DNA of 44,039 bases from Armatimonadota bacterium. Lineage in GTDB: Bacteria > Armatimonadota > UBA5829 > DTJY01. A program made the translations under genes and the position numbers. The stretch covers positions 2,173 to 46,211 of the forward strand of contig JAGONM010000030.1 of NCBI GenBank assembly GCA_017993055.1, in the 5' to 3' direction. The notes beneath the pieces are model-generated. The model was not told the origin of the DNA, searched no databases, and saw only the letters and a list, made by a program, of their open reading frames with translations. Shown piece by piece: positions 26,158 to 44,039 of the stretch (positions are counted from its first letter, which is position 1; each line of letters starts with the position of its first letter).

Positions 26158-26290
26158 CTGGGAATGGAATCCCCAGGCAAGTCAGGTGCAAAGCGAGCTG
26201 AAGCAGGCTTACTGTACTGCTGTCTCTCGGCTTGCTTCAGCCTGCTTGACGTGCGCCTCGCCTCGTCCTTCAGGTCGAGGACCGCTTGGT
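26158..26290. repeat. repeat F, copy 1
   Basis: About 130 bp shared with 28690-28829: GGAATNGAATCCNNAGGCAAG, GTGCAAAGCGAGCTGAAGC, an inverted GCTTCAGCCTGCTTGA, and TCCTTCAGGTCGAGGACCGC. It overlaps the 3' end of the methyltransferase gene and supplies its last codons and stop. Confidence 0.85.
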
Positions 26291-27046
26291 GCAGCGGTGT
26301 ATTATCTCGCCTGACAGTCCGTAGGTCCTTATGGTCGTTGCATCCAGCCACTGCTCCGGCCTAATGACGGCGACCTCAAAACCGACTCTTGAGAGCCGCT
26401 CGAGGATATCGCTTCCGTACTGCCGGACGTGATCGGCCTGCCCGAAAAGCCTGATCCGCTGCGCTGGCGTGTATGCGTCCAGAGCCTCGATTGTCCGCTG
26501 TCCGTCCGTGGGGACCATCACCACGGCCCATCCGCCGTTCTTTAGCACCCGATACATCTCCGACATCGCCTTAGCGTCATCGGGAATATGTTCGAGCACG
26601 TGCAGGCACAGGATGCCGTCAAGGTGCTCAGTCTGCATCGGTATGTCGCACAGATCCATCCGGAAGTCTATCGCAGGCTTCTCTGCCAGGTCGCCCGCTA
26701 GATAGGTGAGGTCCGGGATCAGCCTCAGATGGTCGGAGAAGCACTGTTCGGGGGCAATATGCAGTAAGCTCAACTGGTTCTCGAAAAGTGGGGTACACGT
26801 CCTCAGGTAGAGCCAAACGAGCCTATGCCGTTCTAGCGCCCCACATCCGGGACACCGAGCACCCAGGCGGACAACAGAGCGATCGGATTGCACAACTCGT
26901 TGGGGTGCGAACCGTCGAAACCGACGATCGCAGATCGGACACTGGAACTCCCCGCCGCGAAGGGAAAGGCATTCTATCTGACGCCTGATCTTGCGAACCC
27001 AACGCAACCCGCTGCTGGGGACGATAGATTTGAACATCTGCTTCAT
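26270..27046 (-). CDS. class I SAM-dependent methyltransferase
   Basis: A 258-residue methyltransferase. Near the N-terminus a CxxC...CPGC pair (CPICDRRF, RCPGCGALERHR) suggests a zinc-ribbon-like element. The core has LLHIAPEQ, a motif with the acidic residues of the SAM site (YLAGDLAE, DFRMDLCDIP), LDGILCLHVLEHIPDD and a GGWAVVMVP strand. This resembles methyltransferases found with glycan or surface-polysaccharide genes, but no target is visible. A GTG at 27064 is possible; the ATG at 27046 was preferred, with weak ribosome-site support for either. Its C-terminus (KRSST) is coded by repeat F. Confidence 0.75.
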   Translation of the reverse strand: MKQMFKSIVPSSGLRWVRKIRRQIECLSLRGGEFQCPICDRRFRRFAPQRVVQSDRSVVRLGARCPGCGALERHRLVWLYLRTCTPLFENQLSLLHIAPEQCFSDHLRLIPDLTYLAGDLAEKPAIDFRMDLCDIPMQTEHLDGILCLHVLEHIPDDAKAMSEMYRVLKNGGWAVVMVPTDGQRTIEALDAYTPAQRIRLFGQADHVRQYGSDILERLSRVGFEVAVIRPEQWLDATTIRTYGLSGEIIHRCTKRSST

Positions 27047-27074
27047 CGCCAATGCGAATAGCACCTATGTCGGT

Positions 27075-28382
27075 TCATATGTCAGGAGGCGGTGGAGGGT
27101 CGCCACCGCCCGGATCATCTGAGTCCTCACCCACGGTGAACTGGCCTGGCTCAGTGGAGTATATGTACCTAGTGTTCTTAGCTCCAGTCTTCGCCACGGA
27201 ACTGCCAGTACCTGACGGAAGCGGACCTGGGCTGTCATTGCTGTTCTTGGCGCCCACGCGCCAGAACAACCTCTGACCGTCCGCAACACCCCCCAGTTCC
27301 GAACAGTTGCTCAAGTCAACCGTCAGTTGGCTCGCACTACGATCTACGTCAACGCAGACAGTCTTAGCGCGAATGAACTGGTCACTTGTTGATACTTCGA
27401 CACGGTAGCGGTCCGCGCCCTGAGACAACTCCCAGTTAAATGTGACGCTAATGAGAGGCGGACCTGCTGCGGGAACCGCGCTGCGGCATGCCGGAGGAGA
27501 GACATAAGTAGCGCTTCCGAGGTAGACGGGAGTGGTCTCCCTGTAAACCACTCTGCCGTCAGTCGAGCTTATGACGCGATACACCGCGGAGATCCAGTAG
27601 TGGTGAGTCTTGCCCACGGTGATGCCAGGCATGGTTTCCTGAGTGCACTGTGCCAGTTCGCCGTCAGTTCCGAAGCAGTACCAGGTGTAATCCAACCGCG
27701 TTGCGGTATCGTCAATGGAATGATGGTCAAAATGGCCTATGCCGCCACTGTACGGAACAGCAGTAACTACGTCAGGCACAAGAACCGGGCATGCAAGTGT
27801 AGAATCTCCGTCTGATTGAATATAGTTGCCGTAAACGTCGCGCCAGACATGGTACTCGACGATATCAGAGGACCTGATGCCCACAAAATCGTTCCAGCCG
27901 ATGAATACGCCTCCGTCATCGAATGCCGACGTGATATCCGGCTCAGTCCCAGCGGCTGCAACGCCGGTGGTTACGGGCTCCACATCGGTCCACACGGCAA
28001 GACTCAGGCTCTTGTGCTGCCCAGCTTGTAGCGCGAACGGCTCCGTACAACTGGCAACCGGCGTCCCGACAGCTCCGGGCTGTCCATAGGCAGTCGCAAC
28101 CGCAGCCAGGTTACCCGGGGGCAGGTCTTCGAAACTCACCGTGGACTCGTCTTCGTCTTCCAGACGATCTAAGACGGCGCTTGCGATCACCTGTGCACCG
28201 CTCCTGATCTCGATTCTCACGCTCAGAGCGGCTTCCGGTATAGGTCCTGAGGGTTCGGGCCAGGCAACAGATATGGATGCGCTACCCGTCACCGATCCGC
28301 CGGAGTGGCTGCCGCAGCCAGCGAGCAACGATAACACTAGTGCAGATACCATACCCACTAGAATTACCAATGGTCGGCGCAC
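27075..28382 (-). CDS. lipoprotein with fibronectin-like region
   Basis: A 435-residue exported lipoprotein. The frame opens at a TTG (28421), but a GTG at 28382 has AGGAG 8 bases upstream and gives a classic lipoprotein signal MRRPLVILVGMVSALVLSLLAGC, with Cys23 the likely lipid site. The mature part has beta-rich segments that look like fibronectin type III or surface-adhesion modules (for example LISVTFNWELSQGADRYRVEVSTSDQF) and a Pro-rich end. No enzyme motif was seen. Codon use is less GC-biased than in the core genes. The TATAAT at 28527 probably drives it. The methyltransferase gene follows 28 bp downstream on the same strand. Confidence 0.75.
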   Translation of the reverse strand: MRRPLVILVGMVSALVLSLLAGCGSHSGGSVTGSASISVAWPEPSGPIPEAALSVRIEIRSGAQVIASAVLDRLEDEDESTVSFEDLPPGNLAAVATAYGQPGAVGTPVASCTEPFALQAGQHKSLSLAVWTDVEPVTTGVAAAGTEPDITSAFDDGGVFIGWNDFVGIRSSDIVEYHVWRDVYGNYIQSDGDSTLACPVLVPDVVTAVPYSGGIGHFDHHSIDDTATRLDYTWYCFGTDGELAQCTQETMPGITVGKTHHYWISAVYRVISSTDGRVVYRETTPVYLGSATYVSPPACRSAVPAAGPPLISVTFNWELSQGADRYRVEVSTSDQFIRAKTVCVDVDRSASQLTVDLSNCSELGGVADGQRLFWRVGAKNSNDSPGPLPSGTGSSVAKTGAKNTRYIYSTEPGQFTVGEDSDDPGGGDPPPPPDI

Positions 28383-28526
28383 AGCATAAGCTCCTAGCAG
28401 GGTATCTTGAATGGGCCTCAAAGGTTACTCCGATCGGCCGGTGTTGAGCGGATTGGCGCAAGTAGGACAATGTGCACTCTCGAAAAGTATACTCGTTCCG
28501 CCGCCAGTATACATTCCGCCCTCAAT

Positions 28527-39621: not shown

Positions 39622-39650
39622 ATTGTATTGCAGACCCTGGGGCTTGTCAA
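39622..39650 (-). promoter_or_regulatory. promoter of trxA
   Basis: The minus strand has TTGACA (39650-39645), a 17-bp spacer and TACAAT (39627-39622), about 50 bp before the trxA start. Confidence 0.65.
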
Positions 39651-39701
39651 GGAATGGGAAGAATGGAGTACGCTGAGATCGAATATCGATGCTTCGCTTG
39701 G

Positions 39702-39731
39702 TTGACAAATTGCCTGCTCACTGGTCATATT
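39702..39731 (+). promoter_or_regulatory. possible promoter of the PEP-CTERM operon
   Basis: TTGACA at 39702-39707 is followed after 18 bp by CATATT (39726-39731). The -35 is perfect, the -10 weak. An RTCGAY site (39685) lies just upstream. Confidence 0.45.
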
Positions 39732-39760
39732 GACAGGTAGACACTGCCACTGTGTTCGGC

Positions 39761-39802
39761 TAACGCTGAGATTGGGTATATATACCTGGATAGTCAGCGC
39801 TA
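39761..39802. promoter_or_regulatory. nested dyad (operator or RNA hairpin) before the PEP-CTERM gene
   Basis: TAACGCTGA and TCAGCGCTA form a 9-bp dyad with one mismatch around an inner perfect 12-bp palindrome GGTATATATACC (39775-39786). It lies 28 bp upstream of the start codon, in the proposed leader. It could be a repressor site or a hairpin. Confidence 0.5.
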
Positions 39803-39829
39803 GGCATCGCATCGAACAGGAGGACTCAA

Positions 39830-40525
39830 ATGAATCTACGACAGATGTGCAAATTCTCGATGATTGTGTGTTGTGCCATGTTGTCGTTCGCGGCTGCCGC
39901 GCATGATGCAATTGCGGCAACCTACGACCTTCCAGTCGTCAGCACAGCGACGCTCATTGTCAGCCAACAAAACTACAGCAGGCTGGGAGAGCCAGGTGTG
40001 CCGCATGAGCTTCTTCTCAACCCTCAGAGTCTTCAGTTCGGCTATGATGCGGCAACCGATCTGGTGTACGAGAGTGTTATCGTGTTTGATAGAGCCGAAC
40101 TCGCGCCCTACTCCGCGGCCGCAGGATGGGTTGATCTTCACCTGACATCAGTATCGATGCCTACGACTAACGGCGGGTATGGCATGTGGAAGCTGGAACA
40201 GCCCCATGATGCCGTTGCAGATCTGTCTGATTTCCTCGGACAGCGTCTCTTCTTTTGTGAGGACGTCTGCGCACCGTATGGGGCTGAGTACTCCGCCTAC
40301 GTCGACATGCTGTCGGCTCCGGAAGGATACGAGGCCTGGATATTGAGTTCGTTTGGCTCCACAACCCCCGCTATCGTTGCAGGCGTAGGCAGCAGTATTG
40401 ACCCGGGAGGACCACACATGGTGTTACATGTCATCCCTGAGCCATCTTCACTGGTGTGTCTGGGCCTGGCGCTCTCGTCGTTAGCAGGTTCCGCCGCGTC
40501 GATGAGAAGGAGGGGCAGGAAATGA
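39830..40525 (+). CDS. PEP-CTERM sorting-signal protein
   Basis: A 231-residue exported protein. It has a signal peptide (residues 1-30) and a beta-rich domain with no family I recognise (SQQNYSRLGEPGVPHELLLN, VWIL-like strands). The C-terminal tail is a PEP-CTERM signal: IPEPSSL, a hydrophobic helix (VCLGLALSSLAGSAA) and an RRRGRK basic end, the substrate of an exosortase not in this window. The ATG follows AGGAGG. The stop overlaps the next start (ATGA), so the two products are translationally coupled. The gene uses the word RTCGAY three times, unlike the rest of the window. Confidence 0.85.
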   Translation: MNLRQMCKFSMIVCCAMLSFAAAAHDAIAATYDLPVVSTATLIVSQQNYSRLGEPGVPHELLLNPQSLQFGYDAATDLVYESVIVFDRAELAPYSAAAGWVDLHLTSVSMPTTNGGYGMWKLEQPHDAVADLSDFLGQRLFFCEDVCAPYGAEYSAYVDMLSAPEGYEAWILSSFGSTTPAIVAGVGSSIDPGGPHMVLHVIPEPSSLVCLGLALSSLAGSAASMRRRGRK

Positions 40526-43272
40526 GCGATGGACTCACCATTGCATGCGCACGGCATGAGAAGAGAGATCGGCAGCATGCTTTCCTCAGAGGACGGTCAC
40601 TGCGAGATCTCCTCTTTCTGGTGATCTGTGTTGTCGTGCTGTCAGCAGGTGCGCTGGCAGAAGACGACATCATCGACTCGGCGGCTGGGGGCATTGCGCC
40701 GCGTGCGTTGGCCGCCGTGCCTAGCCCGGTGATCACTTGCCCACCGGCTGGCTACAGGGTTCTGCCAGCATTTCCGCGCTTCTTCTGGTCATACGGGTGC
40801 GTTCCTACCGCTGGGGCCATGTTGGTCGGCTACTATGACAATGCGGGCTTTCCATGCATGTTCAGAAACGCTGACGATAGTGATGCTCTTTGCCCGACAG
40901 GCAACTACCCAAACGACAATGGTATCTTCCTGAAGTCCGGTGATGCTAGGAACAAGTACCCATCCCGTTGCTCGCTCAGCGCCACGGAGCAAGGTGTCCT
41001 CGGGCGGGAGACGTTCGGCCATGTCGACGACTACTACGTGGCGGAGTACAGCACGGAGGACCCTTACTACAGTAATACGCCGCCGATAGGCCCCAGATGG
41101 ACCCCGCACACGACTGACGACTGTGTGGCGGACTTCATGGGAACGAACATCTCACGCTTTCGGGGCCAGGTGGACGGCAGCTCCATGATCAGTTTCAGCG
41201 CGCTGGATGGGGCCATCAAGAGGTTCCTTCCTCCCAGATATCCATACACAAATCCTAGCAGTACACCCTACGCATATATTGATGCTATATATGGGCTGAG
41301 TGACTATATAGTACGCTTTGCCGGCTACCACTGTACAACTAGGACGGCTGGAGATCAGACGCAGTTCGATAGCGTCGCGGATTATTATAGCAGGACGGTT
41401 AAGGGTTACAAGAACGACGACAATGGTGTGACGGAGGAGGATATCGCGAATGAGATCGATGCTGGTCGGCCAGTCATCGCCACAGCAGTCATGTTGAACT
41501 CCGCGAACCAGGAAACGACGGGACGCCACTCGTTCCCGATCTTTGGCTACAAATGGGTGACTGAACAAGGGCAAGAGCGCCTGTGGATGCTGGCCTATGA
41601 TACTTGGTATGAGGACGCAGCCACTGGGACCAGTTATCGGACAATCAAGTTTCAAACGCCCGATGAGGCTGAGTACAATGTGGGCGGTCCCAGTTTCACT
41701 CGTGAGTCTGACGGACATAAGTGGAAGATCTACGGCTTCTCTTTCCTGAACATCAACAACAATGCGAGATGTCCCGTGCCACTGGGAACGAATGACAGCC
41801 CGAGCGGCACGTACGAGGATGAGTTCGATGTGGAGTTCTCCCTGCCGGGCAACTCACGCGTGCACTATGACGCCAAGGCGCCGACCCCTGCGTCCCCATA
41901 TGTGGCACTCGATGGGAACGGCGACGGAAGCCTGACTATCGACCACGACTGCACGATCAACTTCCGGACCTACCGCGACGCCACACCGCCGGACGGCTAC
42001 CTGGCAAGCGATGTGGTGAGCCGCGTATACTCGGTGTTCTCCGCCAATAAGAATCCCAAGCGCTGTGCCGACAGCACCAGCGTCACCCTGGTAAACGGCA
42101 TCGTGACCTATGTGGTAGACAGTGATACCTTCTACCTCGAAGAGCGCGACCGCAGGTTATTCGGGATCAGAGTGAGCAAGGCAAACCATGGCTTGTCTGT
42201 CGGCGACGAGGTGTCCGTCGTCGTCGGTTCGATTCTCACGGATACCAACTCAGAGCGCTACATCAGCGCCACATCGCTATCCACCACAACGCCGACTGCG
42301 ACGATCGACCCGCTCCTGGTTACCTGTGGGGTAGCGGGCGGCGGCGACTACCTGCCGGAGGGTGGATCGGGCACGGGCTACGGTCAACTCGGGGTCACCG
42401 GCGGGCATGGTATCAACACCGTAGGGCTGCTCGTCAGCCTGATCGGAACAGTGAGCCGCATCGGCTCGAACACCGTCACCGTCGACGACGGAAGCGCGGT
42501 TGTTGACGCAGACGACTATGCCGGGGTAGAGGTGTCCGCCAGTTCGGTGCCACAGGGCCTGGCGGTCGGCGACCCGGTTGTTGTCGAAGGCATCTGCAGC
42601 TTGCGAGCGCAGACGGGTACCGGAGACTTCTTCCCTCTGGTCCTGGCGACGAGCGTCACGGAAACGACGGCATCGATGGTCACGTCCGCGGATCCGGATG
42701 GACCGGTCAACATGTCATGGAACCTGCTCTCTCTGCCGGCGGTTCCGGAGGACCCTGACCCCGCCGATCTGTTCGACGAGTGCCCTGACTCTATTGCCGG
42801 CGGGAACCTGTACCGCTGGGACAACCCCGTCCAGAGCCTGTTTGCCTATGATAGCTGGACCCCCGACGAGTTTGGCAATCTGTTGATTGGCACGGGTTAC
42901 TGGCTGAACATCTGCGAAACGGACGAGAATCAGATATCCTATTCAGCGATCACCGACAATGACGATAGGGACGCGCTCATCAGTCTGCCATCGGCTGGGT
43001 GGGGAATCATCGGGTGCCCGTTCAGCTACCAAGTAAGCTTCGGCGATGTGCGGGTCACGGACGGCACGTATAGTCGAACGGTTGAAGAGGCTCGGGGCGA
43101 CGGAATGCTGAGCACTCTCATGTACTGGTGGAGCAGCTCGACACAAAGCTTGCATGACGCGGGGCTCGAAGACGATTATGCGGCCTCAACAGCTCTTGAC
43201 CCCTGGCACGGCTACTGGATCAACACGTTCAGAGATGATCTAGCCTTGATCGTACCCCATTCTGCGGAATAG
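40522..43272 (+). CDS. multidomain C39-like peptidase with OB-fold-like repeats
   Basis: A 916-residue exported protein. The ATG at 40522 overlaps the PEP-CTERM stop and has GGAGGGG upstream; earlier in-frame starts lie inside that gene. A hydrophobic segment (about 33-47) acts as signal or anchor. Residues about 70-430 form a C39-like cysteine peptidase: SYGCVPTAGAMLVGYYD carries the Cys, GRHSFPIFGY the probable His and AYDTWYED the Asp. Residues about 519-716 are OB-fold-like units with DDGSAVV, similar to the end of the NAGPA protein. The rest (about 725-916) holds two related modules, WNLLSLP...GYWLN and GWGIIGCPF...GYWIN. The substrate is unknown. It carries eight RTCGAY sites. Confidence 0.78.
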   Translation: MSDGLTIACARHEKRDRQHAFLRGRSLRDLLFLVICVVVLSAGALAEDDIIDSAAGGIAPRALAAVPSPVITCPPAGYRVLPAFPRFFWSYGCVPTAGAMLVGYYDNAGFPCMFRNADDSDALCPTGNYPNDNGIFLKSGDARNKYPSRCSLSATEQGVLGRETFGHVDDYYVAEYSTEDPYYSNTPPIGPRWTPHTTDDCVADFMGTNISRFRGQVDGSSMISFSALDGAIKRFLPPRYPYTNPSSTPYAYIDAIYGLSDYIVRFAGYHCTTRTAGDQTQFDSVADYYSRTVKGYKNDDNGVTEEDIANEIDAGRPVIATAVMLNSANQETTGRHSFPIFGYKWVTEQGQERLWMLAYDTWYEDAATGTSYRTIKFQTPDEAEYNVGGPSFTRESDGHKWKIYGFSFLNINNNARCPVPLGTNDSPSGTYEDEFDVEFSLPGNSRVHYDAKAPTPASPYVALDGNGDGSLTIDHDCTINFRTYRDATPPDGYLASDVVSRVYSVFSANKNPKRCADSTSVTLVNGIVTYVVDSDTFYLEERDRRLFGIRVSKANHGLSVGDEVSVVVGSILTDTNSERYISATSLSTTTPTATIDPLLVTCGVAGGGDYLPEGGSGTGYGQLGVTGGHGINTVGLLVSLIGTVSRIGSNTVTVDDGSAVVDADDYAGVEVSASSVPQGLAVGDPVVVEGICSLRAQTGTGDFFPLVLATSVTETTASMVTSADPDGPVNMSWNLLSLPAVPEDPDPADLFDECPDSIAGGNLYRWDNPVQSLFAYDSWTPDEFGNLLIGTGYWLNICETDENQISYSAITDNDDRDALISLPSAGWGIIGCPFSYQVSFGDVRVTDGTYSRTVEEARGDGMLSTLMYWWSSSTQSLHDAGLEDDYAASTALDPWHGYWINTFRDDLALIVPHSAE

Positions 43273-43280
43273 GACGAGGG

Positions 43281-43310
43281 CCCAGGTCACACGGGAACGC
43301 GGTGTCTGGG
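43281..43310 (+). terminator. hairpin after the C39 gene
   Basis: CCCAGGTCACAC and GGTGTCTGGG pair imperfectly 8 bp past the stop codon. No T-run follows, so it may be a Rho-type or weak terminator. Confidence 0.4.
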
Positions 43311-43330
43311 CAGCATCTCCCCGAATCTGA

Positions 43331-43336
43331 TATAAT
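43331..43336 (+). promoter_or_regulatory. -10 element of ychF
   Basis: A perfect TATAAT lies 75 bp before the ychF start. With an 18-bp spacer the -35 would be TGGGCA (43307-43312), a weak match. The start site would be near 43343. Confidence 0.45.
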
Positions 43337-43410: not shown

Positions 43411-44039
43411 GTGAAGGTAGGAATCATCGGGCTGCCGGCGACCGGCAAGACAACCCTGTTCAACGCGCTCACCCACGGCGAGGCCCCCGTCACCGAGTTC
43501 AGCGGCAAGCGGTCGGAGGCTAACATCGGGACGATCACCGTACCCGATGCGCGGTTCGACCACATCGTCCAGGTCTGCAAGCCGAAGAAGGTCAGCCCGG
43601 CGCACATCGAGGTCATAGACGGCGCGGCGCCGATCGGGGTGGAGACGCAGAGAGGTTTCGGCACCGACTTCTTCACCGGCATCCGGGCCGTCGAGGCGCT
43701 GATCCACGTCGTACGCGCGTTCGAGACCGCCTCTCACCCCGCACCCGAGAACGGGCTCGATCCCCTGCGCGACGTCCGCAAGGTGAACGACGAACTGATG
43801 CTCGCCGACCTCACGCTGGTCGAGACGCGGATTGAGCGCATCGAGAAGGGCCTGCACGGCAAGAAGATCATCCCCGGCAGTCCGCAAACGATGGAGCTGG
43901 AACTGATGCAGAAGATCAGAGACCAGCTCGAGAACGAAAAGCCGCTCAAGGAACTCGACCTGTCGAACGACGAGGTCAAGATGATCCGCAGCTTCGACTT
44001 CCTTACTCTGAAGCCGATGATCATCGTCGCCAACGTCGG
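43411..44039 (+). CDS. ychF: YchF/OLA1 family ATPase, partial at the window edge
   Basis: The first 209 residues of a translation-factor-class P-loop NTPase that prefers ATP and associates with ribosomes. Seen: VKVGIIGLPATGKTTLFNAL (P-loop), RSEANIGTITVPD, and HIEVIDGAAPIG. The G3-type Asp lies in VIDGAAP, where the family has VDIAGLV, so this may be a divergent subfamily. The start is GTG with AGGAG 7 bases upstream. The frame is open to the end of the window. Val-Ile-Asp is coded GTCATAGAC, so the host RTCGAY avoidance resumes here. Confidence 0.9.
   Translation, partial: MKVGIIGLPATGKTTLFNALTHGEAPVTEFSGKRSEANIGTITVPDARFDHIVQVCKPKKVSPAHIEVIDGAAPIGVETQRGFGTDFFTGIRAVEALIHVVRAFETASHPAPENGLDPLRDVRKVNDELMLADLTLVETRIERIEKGLHGKKIIPGSPQTMELELMQKIRDQLENEKPLKELDLSNDEVKMIRSFDFLTLKPMIIVANV

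Follow-up and report, generated by a model that had tools for sequence, protein, structure and literature searches.

A likely acquired PEP-CTERM/C39-like peptidase gene pair in an Armatimonadota genome that avoids the word RTCGAY

Gene content of the block

We describe a two-gene block at 39651-43306 of a 44,039-nucleotide window (the whole stretch of DNA analyzed, G000:C30:2173-46211) from an Armatimonadota genome of 3.72 Mb in 82 contigs, hereafter the host genome. Coordinates without a contig refer to this window. The block encodes a PEP-CTERM protein and a predicted exported C39-like peptidase, and it breaks a genome-wide avoidance of the palindrome RTCGAY (R, purine; Y, pyrimidine). It was likely acquired from another bacterial lineage, as the original prediction had proposed. 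That proposal is supported by a patchy, non-syntenic distribution, atypical codon use and a step in guanine-plus-cytosine (GC) content; the broken word avoidance, on which it chiefly leaned, is by itself not specific. The adopted bounds lie between the promoter-like sites of the flanking thioredoxin and ychF genes, and the features are as follows.

39622-39650, minus strand: promoter-like site of the divergent native thioredoxin gene, TTGACA-17-TACAAT (consensus scan only, 11/12 matches); left limit of the block
39685-42677, no strand: stretch with 11 RTCGAY among 21 TCGA sites (word counts)
39702-39731, plus strand: promoter-like site 5' of the PEP-CTERM gene, TTGACA-18-CATATT (consensus scan only, 10/12)
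39830-40525, plus strand: PEP-CTERM protein, 231 amino acids (aa), hydrophobic at the N-terminus, with its sorting tail at aa 202-228 and AGGAGG ahead (profile matches, hydropathy)
40522-43272, plus strand: predicted exported C39-like peptidase, 916 aa (PF13529, 27-29 bits against a cut-off of 24)
40606-40662, plus strand: hydrophobic signal or anchor segment of the C39 protein, about aa 29-47 (hydropathy)
40759-41616, plus strand: C39-like domain with Cys93 (40798-40800), His336 (41527-41529) and Asp360 (41599-41601) (alignment of relatives)
42064-42669, plus strand: class-typical domain, aa 515-716, possibly OB-like (sequence comparison; Pfam matches sub-threshold only)
42670-43272, plus strand: C-terminal module, aa 717-916, no Pfam family (sequence comparison)
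43307-43336, plus strand: promoter-like site of native ychF, TGGGCA-18-TATAAT (consensus scan only, 10/12); right limit of the block

The tail of the first protein (VIPEPSSLVCLGLALSSLAGSAASMRRRGRK) joins a PEP motif, a hydrophobic stretch and a basic end. It reaches the TIGR02595 cut-off (16.2 bits; cut-off 16) and falls slightly below that of PF07589 (19.9 against 20.7 bits). Apart from two tail-only matches, homologues of this protein occur only in genomes G016 and G006. The host genome encodes one exosortase (C14:52174-52938; PF09721, 186 bits), by which the PEP-CTERM protein would be cleaved and sorted to the surface. The start of the C39 gene overlaps the preceding stop codon through ATGA and has AAGGAGG, a strong ribosome-binding site, ahead of it; the two genes are therefore probably translationally coupled.

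Nine of ten relatives match PF13529 as well. Cys93 and His336 are each kept in 25 of 26 aligned relatives, and beside Asp360 the same alignment keeps T361 in 25 and W362 in 24. The profile match to the C39-like structure 3erv is weak (E = 0.02), and AlphaFold2 on six sequences gave a mean predicted local distance difference test score of 34, too low for use in judging a papain-like fold. The domain at aa 515-716 is 55-59% identical in G016 and G006 and has many homologues within the host genome. The C-terminal module is missing from the G016 and G006 proteins, occurs on C39 proteins of other phylum members, and has many copies in the host genome, the best at 52% identity (C10). It is carried by many secreted-type proteins of the host genome (C10, C5, C3, C6, C2, C18 and others) and of the class, partly in tandem clusters (for example, C5:69480-86682).

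A peptidase of the same kind, fused in cis to a PEP-CTERM tail, is found on three IMG/VR contigs (L171-L173) and in several members of the phylum, and we infer that the pair represents a split, two-gene form of this arrangement. Its most likely function, as far as the sequences indicate, would be that of an exosortase-sorted surface protein accompanied by an exported C39-like cysteine peptidase.

Composition and edges of the block

All eleven RTCGAY sites of the original prediction (39685, 40153, 40301, 40498, 40672, 41023, 41455, 41938, 42304, 42481 and 42672) lie exactly where it placed them. Its estimate of about five YTCGAY is likewise accurate, with 5 counted within 39650-42677 alongside 3 RTCGAR and 2 YTCGAR. 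Its claim of more than five times the total of the other 40 kb was too high: the window holds 14 RTCGAY, three of them outside the block (4891, 33128 and 33347), for a ratio of 11:3. The share of RTCGAY among TCGA sites nonetheless separates block and remaining window (Fisher p = 2e-13). Across sampled stretches of the host genome (610 kb of the 3.72 Mb, to which all host RTCGAY statistics refer), the block is the densest run of 20 sites: 11 of them are RTCGAY, whereas none of 500 label shuffles exceeded 8.

Base composition and codon use are atypical as well, so that the windowed comparison of word counts, GC and codon use set out in the prediction came out positive on each. GC is 0.575 within the block (39651-43306) against 0.636 at 1-39650, and the predicted richness in A and T near 41250 is apparent at 41200-41420 (0.489). 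GC at third codon positions (GC3) is 0.60 for the PEP-CTERM gene and ranges over 0.61-0.77 within the C39 gene, part by part; most neighbors have about 0.85-0.92. In adherence to host codon use, the PEP-CTERM gene ranks 7th lowest of 387 genes called by a crude caller that admits some spurious frames. Elsewhere in the window, two genes at 26270-28421 have low GC3 (0.70 and 0.59) and zero RTCGAY, one being methyltransferase-like and the other lacking a Pfam match; they are a possible second import, one that keeps the avoidance.

The sharp edges that had been predicted are clear on the left only. On the right, 42678-43272 contains no RTCGAY, but the segment has just four TCGA sites (p = 0.10), and codon use stays atypical up to the end of the C39 gene (GC3 0.71). 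The run of RTCGAY ends at 42677, coinciding with the start of the C-terminal module. This fusion boundary, at 42672, was considered as an edge in composition and rejected: four TCGA sites, none of them RTCGAY, are too few for a test, codon use does not return to normal, and the same fusion of C39 and C-terminal module is found elsewhere in the phylum.

RTCGAY avoidance and its likely cause

The avoidance itself is real and genome-wide outside islands. Excluding tracts that tolerate the word, RTCGAY in the host genome stands at 0.15 of expectation, and the next lowest R/Y-flanked palindrome of this kind is at 0.64. Codon use was ruled out as the source of the depletion by shuffling synonymous codons within each gene, which keeps per-gene codon use: 329 core genes hold 92 RTCGAY against 706 expected, and the block's coding sequence holds 10 against 7.9. 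In relatives, the same control gave 145 against 150 for genes of G006 and G016, and 12 against 143 for same-family G003. Gene type is not the cause of the break either, since 21 host frames that share the two C-terminal domains of the C39 protein obey the avoidance (14 RTCGAY among 370 TCGA sites; the C39 gene has 8 of 19).

The word is avoided in families f1 and f2 (host core 0.15; same-family G003, 0.23; G005, from another family of the class, 0.39). Sampled stretches of family f3 (G006, 0.89; G016, 0.96; G008, 0.95) and of f5 lack the avoidance, and f4 is intermediate in small samples. The likeliest cause appears to be counter-selection exerted by a restriction system that is still present or was so in the past. 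Decay of methylated cytosine is not the main one because the single-base neighbors RTTGAY and RTCAAY show no marked excess (1.07; neighboring words, 0.99-1.05).

Among the candidates examined in the genome, none was identified as an RTCGAY restriction-modification system. A convergent pair on C29 (L154:6636-8718), with a homologous pair in G016 on C200, comprises a Cfr10I/Bse634I-type restriction endonuclease and a C5-cytosine methyltransferase. It was rejected as the responsible enzyme: RCCGGY is not avoided (0.97), non-avoiding G016 has the homologue, and avoiding G003 and G005 are without it. No link to RTCGAY could be established for a Type IIG enzyme on C22 or for PF01555 methylases.

Distribution among relatives

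The check for presence or absence in relatives, also put forward in the original prediction, supports acquisition. Across 28 genomes of the class, four of them from the host's own family, the adjacent PEP-CTERM and C39 genes occur in three: the host, G016 and G006, the latter two from family f3. The pair is absent from all four same-family genomes. Its surroundings differ in all three carriers: beside it, one f3 genome has phytoene-synthase-like and DXS-like genes and the other has isomerase-like and rhamnosidase-like genes. None of nine relatives examined has a cassette gene next to ychF. Synteny in all close relatives, together with normal codon use and an even composition, had been named as the pattern that would count against acquisition; the pair shows the opposite on each count. 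In G006 the peptidase is broken into two frames, and its beginning is read in one frame with the PEP-CTERM part.

With three close members of the pair known, their identities parallel species divergence. The C39 proteins are 54-57% (host-G016), 58-59% (host-G006) and 76% (G016-G006) identical, and the corresponding YchF values are 44%, 48% and 68%. Both f3 carriers have about 50% GC and no RTCGAY avoidance.

Two further observations concern ychF. Host YchF (43411-44037) is only 33-34% identical to that of same-family G002 and G004, below the roughly 50% seen with other families of the class, which suggests that the gene was replaced in those two genomes. The final ychF codons of C30 recur exactly at the end of contig C23 (G000:C23:62922-63044), so the two contigs probably join there.

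RTCGAY-tolerant tracts elsewhere in the genome

A two-state model recovered 13 tracts that tolerate RTCGAY, covering about 13% of the sample. They hold 147 RTCGAY among 658 TCGA sites, against 96 of 3938 outside. The clustering is pronounced (at least 6 of 20 sites are RTCGAY in 126 windows, whereas none of 500 shuffles gave more than 17 such windows), GC3 is lower (0.76 against 0.81, p = 0.001), and the 113 RTCGAY observed against 151 expected approach the ratio of non-avoiding genomes.

Their content is in part accessory (Rhs repeat, colicin-M-like domain, DUF3800, sulfotransferase, rhamnosidase). They also hold mnmG, lon and an APS kinase, by Pfam, and aspartokinase, uvrB, a pyrD-like dihydroorotate dehydrogenase and carB, by start sequences. 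Examples of tracts with housekeeping genes are L020:14560-19610, L013:10072-19874, L006:12123-19990 and L019:2259-16417. One tract, L168:10538-16064, encodes an Rhs-repeat protein and a colicin-M-like C-terminal domain and is probably a polymorphic toxin locus.

The case of carB is instructive: it carries 11 RTCGAY, yet its protein is closest to those of same-family G001 (81%) and G003 (79%). Because native-looking housekeeping genes break the avoidance too, the break is not the specific mark of foreign DNA for which it had been taken, and reasoning from it alone is weaker than was first held. An avoided restriction-type word can thus point to imported DNA, but the argument fails where such genes share the signal. 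The patchwork of tolerance across native genes is, in our view, a more interesting lead than the gene pair itself.

Origin of the gene pair

Taken as a whole, we consider it fairly probable that the pair is a horizontally transferred accessory cassette for a surface-sorted protein and a peptidase. It would have entered the chromosome between the native divergent thioredoxin and ychF genes from a relative within the class or phylum that has lower GC and no RTCGAY avoidance. The word would stand at an unselected rate because the source genome lacked the counter-selection that purged it elsewhere. A source without the avoidance, part of the original prediction, agrees with the occurrence of the homologues in non-avoiding family f3. 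A recent date does not follow, since the nearest known homologues are just 54-58% identical, in line with species divergence. Once in place, the first gene would supply a small exported protein whose PEP-CTERM tail is presented to the host exosortase, and the second a C39-like cysteine peptidase of papain type that is exported and carries class-common domains. Most likely the two would act together at the cell surface, the exosortase placing the PEP-CTERM partner in the envelope and the peptidase acting on that partner or on other proteins held there.

Several points weigh against this account. At the block, neither matching repeats at the edges nor mobility genes came to light, and no plasmid or phage homologue or carrier of the pair was found; horizontal transfer without a recognizable mobile element is common. 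No empty site could be demonstrated because the thioredoxin-ychF neighborhood is not conserved, even in G001. The C39 identities parallel those of YchF, so that the proteins alone would be compatible with ancient vertical descent and many losses. Tolerant tracts contain housekeeping genes, among which carB appears to follow vertical descent at the family level. Donor, transfer, substrate and activity are inferred.

An extension of the transfer account is possible, and we hold it tentatively: the block and the other RTCGAY-rich tracts, including carB, lon and mnmG, may all have been imported from close lineages that were never counter-selected, with the block as the non-homologous case, and the clearest patch, among many homologous replacements. 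Tract clustering far above the shuffles, the extent of the tracts, their lower GC3 and their near-unselected word ratio all favor such a map. The one housekeeping gene tested, carB, is closest to same-family genomes, and a close non-avoiding donor would thus be needed; G001 may be of this kind, although few sites fall within the stretch sampled from it. If this holds, imported DNA, including replaced core genes, could be read off from how densely a single avoided word occurs along the genome.

A vertical history with repeated losses, in which a pair ancestral to the class happens to lie in a tolerant tract for a reason unrelated to transfer, is improbable. The parallel divergence of the C39 proteins and the native genes in tolerant tracts speak for it. 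It would take loss from 25 of the 28 class genomes, all four of the same family among them, as well as three unrelated locations, and it leaves the step in GC and codon use unexplained. Host proteins with shared domains keep the avoidance. That RTCGAY merely arises more often in secreted or low-GC3 genes, as the low GC3 of the block and, on average, of the tolerant tracts might suggest, is already contradicted by the codon shuffles of core genes and block, by the host proteins that share its domains, and by the low-GC3 genes at 26270-28421, and we give it almost no weight.

Comparison with known systems

The depletion resembles the avoidance of restriction sites described for host genomes (Rusinov et al. 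2015, PMC4687349) in that one degenerate palindrome is strongly depleted and the depletion is common to related genomes; it differs in being mosaic along the genome and without an assignable RTCGAY-specific restriction-modification system.

The gene pair belongs to already known kinds of system, as a further example. With the PEP-CTERM/exosortase (EpsH) system (Haft et al. 2006, PMC1569441) it shares a hydrophobic N-terminal segment, a Pro-Glu-Pro tail, a hydrophobic stretch, a basic end and an exosortase in the genome. Most PEP-CTERM genes are described as single-gene operons (Haft et al. 2006, PMC1569441), whereas here an overlapping peptidase gene follows directly. The peptidase resembles the papain-like cysteine peptidases of Peptidase_C39_2 (PF13529) in scoring above the Pfam cut-off, in its Cys...His...Asp order and in its weak 3erv profile match, and differs in a conserved GHVDDYW...DC.ADFMGT stretch and class-specific C-terminal domains. 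True C39 bacteriocin-processing peptidases are linked to an ABC exporter, and no such link was seen here. The pair also resembles C39-like secreted proteins that carry a PEP-CTERM tail in cis (in phylum members and on IMG/VR contigs L171-L173), which likewise combine the same peptidase domain and sorting signal. What sets the pair apart, besides its patchy distribution, is that the sorting signal resides on a separate, overlapping upstream gene, so that the peptidase stands apart from a surface-sorting tag to which it is elsewhere fused.

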